Of a stretch of 41,393 bases of DNA, positions 15,803 to 22,287 are shown in pieces (position 1 is the stretch's first letter; every line of letters starts with the position of its first letter). The DNA is from Phascolarctobacterium sp. (GTDB lineage Bacteria; Bacillota; Negativicutes; Acidaminococcales; Acidaminococcaceae), in NCBI RefSeq assembly GCF_030531065.1, contig NZ_JAUNOQ010000018.1, positions 1 through 41,393 of the forward strand, written 5' to 3'. Below the pieces are notes generated by a model. That model did not search any database. It was not told the DNA's origin and saw only the letters and a program-made list of their open reading frames with translations. The position numbers and the translations under genes are program-made.

Positions 15803-17713
15803 TTAATTTTGCTTTCCCGCGTATTTTTTCATGGCGGCGGCGATGAGCTGCGCCGTGCGCTTCAGTTCTGCTTCCGTATGGCTGGACATGAGCGCGACTC
15901 TGAGCCGCGCCGTTCCCTTTGCTACCGTGGGGTAGCGGATGGCGGGAATCAAGCAGCCCTGCTGCAGCAGCTCGTCCGCTACTTTCAGCGCCGCGGCTTC
16001 GTTGCCGATGACAATGGGCACGATGGCCGTGGGCGATTCTGCTTTAACGCCGGCGTCGTGCAGGCAGCGCAGAAAATATTCCACGTTATGCTGTAAGCGC
16101 TGGGCGCGGCGGGGCTCCGCTTCCAGAATTTCCAGCGCCTTTAAGGCGGCGGCCAGCGTGGCTGGGGCCTGGGAGGTGGCGAAGATAAAGCTGCGCGCTT
16201 TGTTTTTTAAATATTCGATGATGGTCTTGCTGGCGCAGGCAAAACCGCCTTCCGCGCCCAAAGCTTTGCTCAGCGTGCCCATGATGATATCGGGAACGCA
16301 GGCGTAGTCGTAATATTCTACGGTTCCCTTGCCTGTCGCGCCGATAACGCCGGTAGCGTGGGCTTCGTCGATCATGGTCAGCACATGGTACTGCTTTCCC
16401 AAAGCCGTCAGGCGGGGCAGGTCGACGATATCGCCGTCCATACTGAAAACGGCGTCGCTGACGATGAGGCCCTTGCGATAGGCCGTAGTTTGCAGCTTCT
16501 TTTCCAAATCCCGCATATCGTTATGCTTATAAACGACGACGCGGGCTTTGCTCAAACGGCAGCCGTCGATGATGCTGGCGTGATTGTATTCGTCGCTGAA
16601 GATTACGCTTTCGCTGTCGCAGAGCGCGGAGATGATGCCCACGTTAGCCATATAGCCGGTGTTGAACAGCAGCGCCGCCTCCGTGCTTTTAAACTGCGCC
16701 AGTTTATTTTCCAGCTGTTCGTGCAGGGCGGTGTTGCCCGTGGTCAGACGGCTGCCGCCGCTGCCCGCGCCCCAGGCGAGCGCCGCTTGGGCGGCGGCCT
16801 GCTTGACGCGCTCGTCGTCGGCCAAATCGAGATAGCTGTTGGAGGCTAAAAGCAGCACGGAGCGTCCCCGCATTTTTACATATTTGCTTTGGGGGCTGTC
16901 GATGGTGCGCATGCTGCGGTACAGGGATTTTTCCTTGAGCCGCGCCAGCTCTTCGGCGAAAATTTGCTGCGGGTCGGCGTTGAGCGGGCGCTCAGGCGGC
17001 AGGCCGCGCACCAGCACTCTTTGTTTTTCCAGATAGTTGATGGCGTCGGCGGCGTCGGCCAGGCGGCTGTCAAAAATAAAAATGCGACCGCCGTGAGGAT
17101 TGCCGACTTCTTTGAGCGGCGTCAGGCGCACATAGCCGTGGCGCAGCGAAGAAATATAACCGGTGACGTATTCCGGATCGTCGGACATACACAGCTCGGC
17201 GATAACTCCCGGCGCGTGGACTACCTTGGTCGCGAGCACGACGGCTTCGCGGAAATGATTTTTGCAGCTGCCGGTTGCGCTCGCGCTTTCGGCGTCCATG
17301 TAGGTAACGCGGATGCCGCGCTGATGGTCGGGCTCGATGCAGCGGTCCGTGGCCAGGTCGTAAAGGACGGCGCCGCGCATGGGGTGGACGCTGCGCAACA
17401 GCGCGACGAGCTTATCCGCTTGGGCCGCCAGGCCCAGCTCGCCTAAAATCTGGCGCATAATCGCATAGCTGCCTTCCACCGTAGCGGCAGGGCGGGCGCT
17501 GACGGGCAGCGCCTCCAGATATTGCAGCTCGCCGGGCTGGATTTCTTCGATTTTGACGTTGATAAAATCGGCGCGGCCCAGACCGTGGTGCAGGGCGCGT
17601 TCGCTCAAGGCGCTGACGGCCCGGCTTATATCCTGTTGGGGCAGGATGCGTTCTGCGCCGCTGACGTGCTTGCCGCTTTTGGACGCGCGCATTTTAATAC
17701 TGTATGTGGGCAT
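15803..17713 (-). CDS. bioWF: Fused pimeloyl-CoA synthetase and 8-amino-7-oxononanoate synthase (BioW-BioF)
   Basis: A 636-residue protein. Residues 1-~240 are BioW (YSIKMRASKSGKHVSGAERI, later RVTYMDAE and HGGRIFIF), which activates pimelate to pimeloyl-CoA with ATP. Residues ~250-636 are BioF, with DEAHATGVIGATGKG and the PLP lysine in GTLSKALGAEGGF, condensing pimeloyl-CoA with L-alanine to 8-amino-7-oxononanoate. Both halves have full family length and continuous reading, so this is a true fusion that could pass pimeloyl-CoA between sites. The ATG follows AAAGGAGAAACAAGCATT. It is the last gene of the biotin operon, 208 bp after the membrane-protein gene. Confidence 0.95.
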   Translation of the reverse strand: MPTYSIKMRASKSGKHVSGAERILPQQDISRAVSALSERALHHGLGRADFINVKIEEIQPGELQYLEALPVSARPAATVEGSYAIMRQILGELGLAAQADKLVALLRSVHPMRGAVLYDLATDRCIEPDHQRGIRVTYMDAESASATGSCKNHFREAVVLATKVVHAPGVIAELCMSDDPEYVTGYISSLRHGYVRLTPLKEVGNPHGGRIFIFDSRLADAADAINYLEKQRVLVRGLPPERPLNADPQQIFAEELARLKEKSLYRSMRTIDSPQSKYVKMRGRSVLLLASNSYLDLADDERVKQAAAQAALAWGAGSGGSRLTTGNTALHEQLENKLAQFKSTEAALLFNTGYMANVGIISALCDSESVIFSDEYNHASIIDGCRLSKARVVVYKHNDMRDLEKKLQTTAYRKGLIVSDAVFSMDGDIVDLPRLTALGKQYHVLTMIDEAHATGVIGATGKGTVEYYDYACVPDIIMGTLSKALGAEGGFACASKTIIEYLKNKARSFIFATSQAPATLAAALKALEILEAEPRRAQRLQHNVEYFLRCLHDAGVKAESPTAIVPIVIGNEAAALKVADELLQQGCLIPAIRYPTVAKGTARLRVALMSSHTEAELKRTAQLIAAAMKKYAGKQN

Positions 17714-20645: not shown

Positions 20646-20674
20646 AGTATAGAACAGTTTGCCGCACAAGTCAA
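20646..20674 (-). promoter_or_regulatory. Promoter of the biotin operon
   Basis: On the minus strand, TTGACT (20674-20669), a 17-nt spacer and TATACT (20651-20646). The -35 box overlaps the upstream operator half-site. Confidence 0.75.
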
Positions 20675-20697
20675 CCCAGTAAAATGGTATGGTTAAC
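20670..20697. promoter_or_regulatory. BirA-type biotin operator, upstream copy
   Basis: GTCAACC (20670-20676), a 14-nt spacer and GGTTAAC (20691-20697). This matches the Firmicute BirA operator form (GTTAACC, 14-15 nt, GGTTAAC) with one mismatch. It overlaps the -35 box, so biotinyl-AMP-bound BirA would exclude RNA polymerase. Confidence 0.75.
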
Positions 20698-20754
20698 TAA
20701 AACGGTGCGGCGCAAAAATCTTCCATTATTTAGCGCTTGCGGAAATTTTTTTGC

Positions 20755-20783
20755 TTGCCAAGCGGCGCGTTCTATGTTATCAT
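20755..20783 (+). promoter_or_regulatory. Promoter of panC-panD
   Basis: TTGCCA (20755-20760), a 17-nt spacer and TATCAT (20778-20783). It diverges from the biotin promoter about 80 bp away. Confidence 0.55.
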
Positions 20784-20789
20784 AATTGC

Positions 20790-20952
20790 GGTAAATCGGA
20801 CTGCGGCACAGCAGCGCCTGCGGCGCGTTGTAGCCAGAGCAGCCGGAGTTTATGATAAGAAGTCAATAATCGCTTGGATCTGTCAGACCGGGACGAAGAC
20901 GCAATATGAAGCATATGCCTGCGCATTCCGTTTCGGAGTGCGCTTTTTTATT
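20790..20952 (+). ncRNA. Structured panC leader with terminator, candidate pan-motif RNA
   Basis: The leader folds into a long hairpin at 20797-20845: CGG/CCG, a bulged A (20800), CTGC/GCAG, GGC/GCC, a bulged A (20832), ACA/TGT and GCGCC/GGCGC. A smaller hairpin with a bulged A follows (GGATCT/AGACC, about 20876-20889). An intrinsic terminator, GCGCATTCCG/CGGAGTGCGC plus a T run, ends at about 20950, 100 nt before panC. Stem-loops with bulged adenines upstream of pantothenate genes are the hallmark of the described pan motif. The assignment was not checked against a covariance model. Confidence 0.5.
20921..20951 (+). terminator. Intrinsic terminator in the panC leader
   Basis: A 10-bp stem, GCGCATTCCG with CGGAGTGCGC, a TTT loop and a TTTTTTAT tail. 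It lies ahead of the coding region, so it should act as an attenuator. Confidence 0.8.
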
Positions 20953-21049
20953 TGTAGTGCCGCCGCGAGGGCGGGCGCGTTACTCCAAAAGGTCAGGAAG
21001 AATAATACAACGATTATGCAAATCGGTATTCAAAGTGAGGGAAAAGCTA

Positions 21050-21904
21050 ATGAAATTAGTACACACAGTCGCAGAGCTGCGCGAAGAAGTAGCCGCAGCT
21101 AAAATCAAGGGACTGACCATCGGCCTGGTTCCTACTATGGGCGCTTTGCATGAAGGCCACGCTTCCTTAATCAGCGCCGCCAATAAGGAAAACGATTTTG
21201 TCGTAGTCAGCGTTTTTGTAAATCCGACTCAGTTCGGACCCAACGAAGATTTGGACGCGTACCCGCGCACTTTGGACGCCGACTGTAAGCTGGCGGAAAA
21301 AATGGGCGCCGATATCGTCTTCGCACCTTCTCCTAAAGAAATGTATCCCAGCGAGGACGCTACCTGGGTGGAGGTTACGGGCGACATTACTAAAGTGCTG
21401 TGCGGTCGTACCCGTCCGATTCACTTCCGCGGCGTAACTACCGTCGTTACTAAGCTGTTTAATCTGGCGCAGCCCGACCGCGCTTATTTTGGCCAGAAGG
21501 ACGCGCAGCAGGTGGAAGTGCTGAAGCGCATGGTTAAGGACTTGTTCTTTAATTTGCAGCTGCGTATCATGCCCATCGTCCGCGAAGCCGACGGCCTGGC
21601 CAAAAGCTCCCGCAATACTTATTTGAGCGCCGAAGAACGCGAGGCAGCCCTGGTTTTGAGCCGCAGCCTGAAAGCAGCCAAGGAGCAGTACGATGCGGGC
21701 GAGCGCGACGCCGCTAAAATTACCGCCGCCGTAACCGCTTCCATCGAGCAGGAGCCTATGGCGAATATCGATTATGTAGAAATTTACGCGCTGCCGGAAT
21801 TGAAACCGGCGGCTAAGCCCCTGGCAGGCAGCAATCTGCTGGCCGTAGCCGTCAAATTCGGCACTACCCGTTTAATCGATAATGTTGTATTGGAGGAAAA
21901 ATAA
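21050..21904 (+). CDS. panC: Pantoate-beta-alanine ligase PanC
   Basis: A 284-residue ATP-dependent ligase joining pantoate and beta-alanine to pantothenate. [13 protein letters not shown] (about 29-41) contains the HxGH-type nucleotide site; [14 protein letters not shown] (about 58-71) and GQKDAQQ follow. The start at 21050 is preceded by GTGAGGGAAAAGCTA; the frame extends upstream to 20906 only through the leader terminator and is not used. The stop overlaps panD (TAATG). panB is not in the window. Confidence 0.95.
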
Positions 21905-22287
21905 TGCTTTATAATATGTTTCATGGCAAAATCCATCGCGCTACCGTAACCGAAGCTAATCTGGAATATATGGGCAGCATCACCATCGACAGCGAGCTGC
22001 TGGAGCTGTCCGGGATCTTGCCGGGCGAACGGGTGCAGATTGTGGACAACAATAACGGCAACCGTCTGGAAACCTACGTTATCGCCGGCGAGCGCGGCAG
22101 CGGCGTCATCTGCTTAAACGGCGCGGCAGCCCGTAAGGTAGTAGTGGGCGATACGGTTATCATTATCGCTTACGCGATGATGGACGAAAAGGAAGCTAAA
22201 GGCTACGAGCCGAAAGTCGTTATGGTGGACGAGCATAACCGGCCGATTAACGTGCGCGGCACGGAAAAGGAACGGGAGATAGGCTAA
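21904..22287 (+). CDS. panD: Aspartate 1-decarboxylase PanD
   Basis: A 127-residue pyruvoyl enzyme precursor. Self-cleavage between Gly24 and Ser25 (YMGSITID) generates the pyruvoyl group on the alpha chain. It decarboxylates aspartate to beta-alanine, the second substrate of PanC. Translation is coupled to panC through the TAATG overlap. Confidence 0.96.

Follow-up and report, generated by a model that had tools for sequence, protein, structure and literature searches.

A pan RNA ahead of panC-panD in Phascolarctobacterium and a predicted attenuation switch between its second hairpin and an antiterminator

A 41,393-nucleotide contig of Phascolarctobacterium sp. (NZ_JAUNOQ010000018.1 of assembly GCF_030531065.1; hereafter the window) carries a structured leader ahead of panC, and this locus raises the question of what the RNA is and how it could control pantothenate synthesis. 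In the pan motif (RF01749; Weinberg et al., 2010), as given in the excerpted part of PMC2864571, tandem stems precede pantothenate biosynthetic genes. A pan RNA of Paenibacillus has been mapped inside the measured 5' UTR of panB-panC-panD (PMC5670726). No ligand, mechanism or transporter context of the pan RNA was reported in the literature searched, from which most subscription papers were absent, so that priority is not established. The leader and its genes are as follows.

20755-20783, forward strand: promoter-like site TTGCCA-17-TATCAT with an extended TG (consensus scan, 10 of 12 matches)
20805-20835, forward strand: pan hairpin 1, with 3 bp, bulged A20832, 5 bp, bulged A20813 and an inner stem (RF01749, leave-genus-out model, covariation)
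20870-20896, forward strand: pan hairpin 2, with 3 bp, bulged A20893, 5 bp, bulged A20878 and an inner stem (RF01749, leave-genus-out model)
20921-20949, forward strand: intrinsic terminator with a 10 bp stem, a 3 nt loop and T6 (sequence; folding, -16.0 kcal/mol)
21050-21904, forward strand: panC, pantoate--beta-alanine ligase (TIGR00018, 368.9 bits)
21904-22287, forward strand: panD, aspartate 1-decarboxylase (TIGR00223, 180.4 bits)

RF01749 was the best match in a permissive search, covering the full model (1-92) at 20805-20900 with 35.1 bits and an E value of 2e-4 in 501 bases. The window yields nothing at the Rfam gathering threshold, being 1.1 bits short of the 36.2-bit cut-off; the gathering score is a curated reporting cut-off that does not describe a structural feature and is not used here to define membership, and it was missed because of divergence from the Rfam seed, with no structural feature lacking. 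A covariance model trained without the window's genus, on an alignment of 43 pan RNAs from other genera, gave 48.3 bits (E 8.5e-10) on the window, which was its sole match in the whole genome. The original prediction had proposed a fit to the pan motif, to be checked with the Rfam pan model and abandoned if that model gave no hit and the stem was not conserved in relatives. The search returned the match, slightly below the cut-off, and the stems proved conserved and covarying.

Among the 43 aligned relatives, standard pairs make up 97.2% of paired cells, a level reached by none of 500 shuffles, and both sides have changed in 12 of the 20 pairs. Covariation is found in 9 of the 10 pairs of hairpin 1, and 97.4% of the cells of hairpin 2 are paired. 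Each hairpin has one bulged A per strand, 5 bp apart, and all four are invariant in the alignment. The two bulged hairpins had been recognized correctly at the outset, but with a count of three bulged A's, whereas four are present (A20813, A20832, A20878 and A20893). Folding of 20790-20955 gave -62.7 kcal/mol (z -3.1), which none of 200 shuffles equalled. RF01749 matched in 74 of 100 genomes of relatives at E <= 1 (56 of 100 above the Rfam cut-off), and an even draw across the phylum gave a pan match at E <= 0.001 in 116 of 299. A functionless fold lying by chance beside panC, in favour of which the missed gathering score might be cited, is refuted by these conservation data: given the leave-genus-out E value, the covariation and the recurrence of this element ahead of pan genes across most relatives, we see practically no room for it. 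With two tandem stems of two bulged A's each, a pantothenate synthesis operon downstream (panC at 21050, panD at 21904) and a significant joint score for sequence and structure under both models, 20805-20900 is a complete tandem pan RNA whose membership is secure. It shares with RF01749, in the excerpted part of PMC2864571, tandem stems with two conserved bulged A's each before a panB/panC/panD-type operon. The window holds a true but unremarkable representative of an orphan RNA family that was already known.

Further copies were considered and discarded. Weak RF01749 matches elsewhere in the genome (18.5, 15.6 and 15.4 bits) adjoin unrelated genes and vanish under the leave-genus-out model, and a search of the genome found no pan RNA before its own PanS-like and panF genes. 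In other genomes, the weak matches L150 and L151 lie in unrelated contexts and have the appearance of chance hits. Two other weak matches, L179 (G084) and L180 (G064), are located directly 5' of panB and seemingly consist of a single hairpin.

The promoter-like site ends at 20783, and transcripts should therefore start just 5' of the pan RNA; similar TATNAT boxes occur about 20-25 nt 5' of pan in relatives. The long ORF containing panC opens at 20906, and the TIGR00018 match starts at its residue 49, which is ATG 21050 and likely the panC start. Since the match begins only there, the terminator lies within the untranslated leader, which extends about 260 nt 5' of panC-panD. The terminator reads GCGCATTCCG-TTT-CGGAGTGCGC (20921-20943) followed by T6; it sits 24 nt 3' of hairpin 2 and about 100 nt 5' of panC, where a strong terminator had been noted from the sequence.

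Terminators accompany pan RNAs widely. When about 180 leaders from a class set and a wider phylum sample were compared under uniform criteria, a terminator lay no more than 100 nt away in 81 of the 94 class leaders (median position 22 nt 3' of hairpin 2) and in 66 of the 81 phylum-sample leaders. No terminator was detected in a minority, several of which show hairpins with interrupted T runs. An intrinsic terminator in the leader, 5' of the coding sequence, is thus the common arrangement. In the tails and terminators inspected, the terminator's 5' half can pair with the hairpin 2 3' strand and the conserved tail that follows it. The two strands lie at these positions in the window.

20888-20903, forward strand: antiterminator 5' strand, the hairpin 2 3' strand plus tail, CCGGGACGAAGACGCA (predicted hairpin, 18-mer scan, swap tests)
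20920-20936, forward strand: antiterminator 3' strand, TGCGCATTCCGTTTCGG, overlapping the 5' arm, the loop and the start of the 3' arm of the terminator

The window pairs CCGGGACGAA..CGCA with UGCG..UUCCGUUUCGG. Many class leaders pair GACGGAAGG with CCUUUCGG, while the pairing is GACAGAGGG with UCCUUCUGUC in L190 and ACGUAG with CUACG in L013, L042 and L046. The pairing of each tail with its own terminator was compared with its pairing with the terminators of other leaders. In the class set, own pairing averaged -12.55 kcal/mol versus -11.00 kcal/mol for swapped pairs (sd 0.29, p < 1/3000), and it was still stronger when swaps were kept inside two groups (swapped mean -11.50, sd 0.21, again p < 1/3000). 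Four control segments of the same class leaders showed no preference for their own terminator. In the phylum sample the preference for the own terminator came to z -4.1, and over the 124 distinct leaders together to z -7.7, again with null controls; swapping removes the shared ancestry of leaders only partly, and the control segments share that relatedness. Stem-1 and linker segments showed no leader-specific pairing with the terminator in these tests. Among all 18-mers of a leader, the one pairing best with the terminator half fell on the hairpin 2 3' strand for 50 of the 63 class leaders and for 32 of the 61 from the phylum; position alone predicts roughly one in ten. In the window, the region 20888-20903 gives the 18-mer of the whole leader that pairs best with the terminator half; judged on this one leader, the tail pairing is no more than moderately unusual, with 2.75% of shuffled tails as good. 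The antiterminator complementarity is therefore specific to each leader. An alternative antiterminator from the 5' part of the leader (20797-20805, CGGACTGCG, with 20923-20931) looked good in the window and was rejected, as it is not kept within the genus (L185).

The computations yield an alternative structure that excludes both the terminator and the sensor hairpin, and the antiterminator and pan hairpin 2 are predicted to be mutually exclusive. In Firmicutes attenuators such as TPP and FMN riboswitches and PyrR leaders, the 3' strand of the sensor also forms part of an antiterminator, the competitor of an intrinsic terminator. The pan leaders resemble them in that the sensor 3' strand also serves the antiterminator, and differ in having a pair of small tandem hairpins as sensor.

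Predicted energies in the window are -8.2 kcal/mol for hairpin 2, -16.0 kcal/mol for the terminator and -17.5 kcal/mol for the antiterminator hairpin. When transcripts of increasing length were folded, hairpin 2 had a probability of 0.99 up to 20925; at 20936 the antiterminator reached 0.91 and hairpin 2 fell to 0.01, and by 20943 the terminator had risen to 0.97 and hairpin 2 had returned to 0.99. The prediction for the window is thus that these structures take each other's place in turn as transcription proceeds. The decision would fall within a short interval, so anything that holds hairpin 2 would tip it. The complete terminator is favoured at equilibrium, and the ON state would therefore rest on kinetics.

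We consider it probable that the pan RNA controls panC-panD by transcription attenuation through this competition. When the signal is absent, 20888-20903 would pair with 20920-20936 as RNA polymerase passes, and the resulting antiterminator would allow read-through into panC-panD. The signal, a small molecule or a protein responding to one, would keep hairpin 2 folded and 20888-20903 unavailable; the terminator could then form, transcription would stop and the genes would be off. Because hairpin 2 would compete with the antiterminator, steadying it should stop transcription of the vitamin B5 genes. The computed support covers family membership, the terminator, the specific antiterminator complementarity and the gene contexts. 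We infer the switching itself and the identity of the signal, and derive the sign of control, with the signal turning the genes off, from the anatomy and the logic of a biosynthetic operon. Control by premature termination, as suggested earlier for this leader, is supported by the conserved terminators and the specific antiterminator pairing, the switching being predicted. From the antiterminator model, the individual bases to target by mutation can be read off.

A different output would follow if the terminator were a fixed weak stop, or if control were mainly translational, with the hairpins acting otherwise, for example in mRNA protection. Some leaders have no detected terminator, and the GGAGG tail in some leaders of ECF transporters looks like a ribosome-binding site, so other outputs would exist in the family. 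The window terminator is strong, follows hairpin 2 after 24 nt and has a 5' half that specifically complements hairpin 2, and we regard this alternative as unlikely. The tail in question was noticed directly 3' of the pan match in L257, L260 and L024, where the GGAGG of hairpin 2 lies 5' of ECF S-component genes and looks like their ribosome-binding site; these leaders showed no terminator and, judged from sequence, suggest a translational version of the pan RNA.

Attenuation through hairpin 2 could be driven by different sensors, and two versions of this preferred reading differ in who senses. The sensor may be a dimeric protein responsive to pantothenate or CoA, which would bind the tandem hairpins, clamp hairpin 2 and favour termination. 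The discoverers suggested a dimeric protein-binding motif in the excerpted part of PMC2864571; the simple paired tandem hairpins with bulged A's suit such a site, and the same terminator/antiterminator anatomy would be used. Since no candidate protein is known and L179 and L180 have seemingly one hairpin each (at weak scores), we place a protein sensor a little short of an even chance. The pan RNA may instead be a true riboswitch with a terminator platform that binds pantothenate, phosphopantothenate, CoA or a similar metabolite. Its sensor/antiterminator/terminator anatomy is like that of known riboswitches and its gene set spans pantothenate uptake, synthesis and activation, but the hairpins are each small and simple, and the literature searched contained no ligand report for a motif published in 2010; direct metabolite binding appears plausible to us and short of probable.

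The genes behind pan RNAs bear on the signal. At the 99 loci of the class set, window included, the first downstream gene is panG in 34, panC in 24, a BASS-family transporter gene in 18, panB in 7, yhdT-panF in 7, panD in 3 and another gene in 6. The 87 loci of the phylum set begin with panG (59), panB (10), panC (8) or other genes (10). A BASS protein encoded downstream of a pan RNA scored 251 bits with the PanS model, not reaching its strict cut-off of 400, and a PanF scored 377.9 bits against a cut-off of 328.05 (400 residues scanned). ECF S components follow the pan RNA among the other phylum contexts (L257, L260, L264, L272 and L274). Type III pantothenate kinase occurs in the operons birA-S component-coaX (L244) and S component-coaX (L272), and type II pantothenate kinase in that of L230 (G287). 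Pantoate is the substrate of PanS, and pantothenate that of PanF and PanT (PMC6593275, PMC12570885); substrates of the transporters found behind pan RNAs are putative.

Because these contexts span uptake, synthesis and activation, they suggest that the signal comes late in the pathway, with pantothenate or CoA. It would most likely report the end of the pathway, as pantothenate, CoA or another late intermediate, and the breadth of the regulon makes late products likelier signals than beta-alanine or ketoisovalerate. We give an even chance to the broader proposal that the pan RNA is a widespread Firmicutes attenuator, with hairpin 2 and antiterminator exclusive of each other, governing one CoA-pool-responsive regulon of uptake (PanF, PanS-like, ECF), synthesis (PanB/C/D/G) and activation (type II and III pantothenate kinases). 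If true, one RNA ties vitamin B5 uptake and synthesis together in common gut bacteria and offers a means to assign transporters of unknown substrate. The overlap of stem 2 with the terminator/antiterminator and the uptake and kinase contexts go beyond the description in the excerpted part of PMC2864571. For this already known family, the present analysis adds a wider regulon and a specific switching model, open to experimental test, that would apply to all its members.

In L230, the pan RNA is followed by a transporter of OPT-family-like appearance, judged from the look of its sequence, together with the type II kinase gene; this transporter may carry a CoA precursor. In L235 (G180), an amidohydrolase-like gene, birA and an ECF S component follow the pan RNA.

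Neither panB nor panG was found in the window's genome, which is 99.5% complete, and panC-panD therefore looks like a pantoate-salvage operon. Gut bacteria with PanD and PanC and without PanB have been described as a pantoate-salvage type (PMC6593275), which this genome resembles. panF and two PanS-like proteins are also present, and this gene content suggests salvage of pantoate or pantothenate. The same-genus relatives L035 and L037 retain panG-panB-panC-panD behind the same RNA. The window PanC is closest to that of Acidaminococcus, Pectinatus and other Selenomonas relatives, with one contig labelled Succinatimonas as the exception, which places the genome in the Negativicutes.

On the minus strand, bioD diverges from the plus-strand panC leader across 20668-20789, with promoter-like sites on both strands. 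This short intergenic stretch may therefore serve both cofactor operons. The minus-strand ORF at 15803-17713 encodes 636 amino acids, matching BioW at residues 12-236 and then BioF at 264-623, and looks like a fusion of bioW and bioF; bioA and bioD belong to the same biotin cluster.
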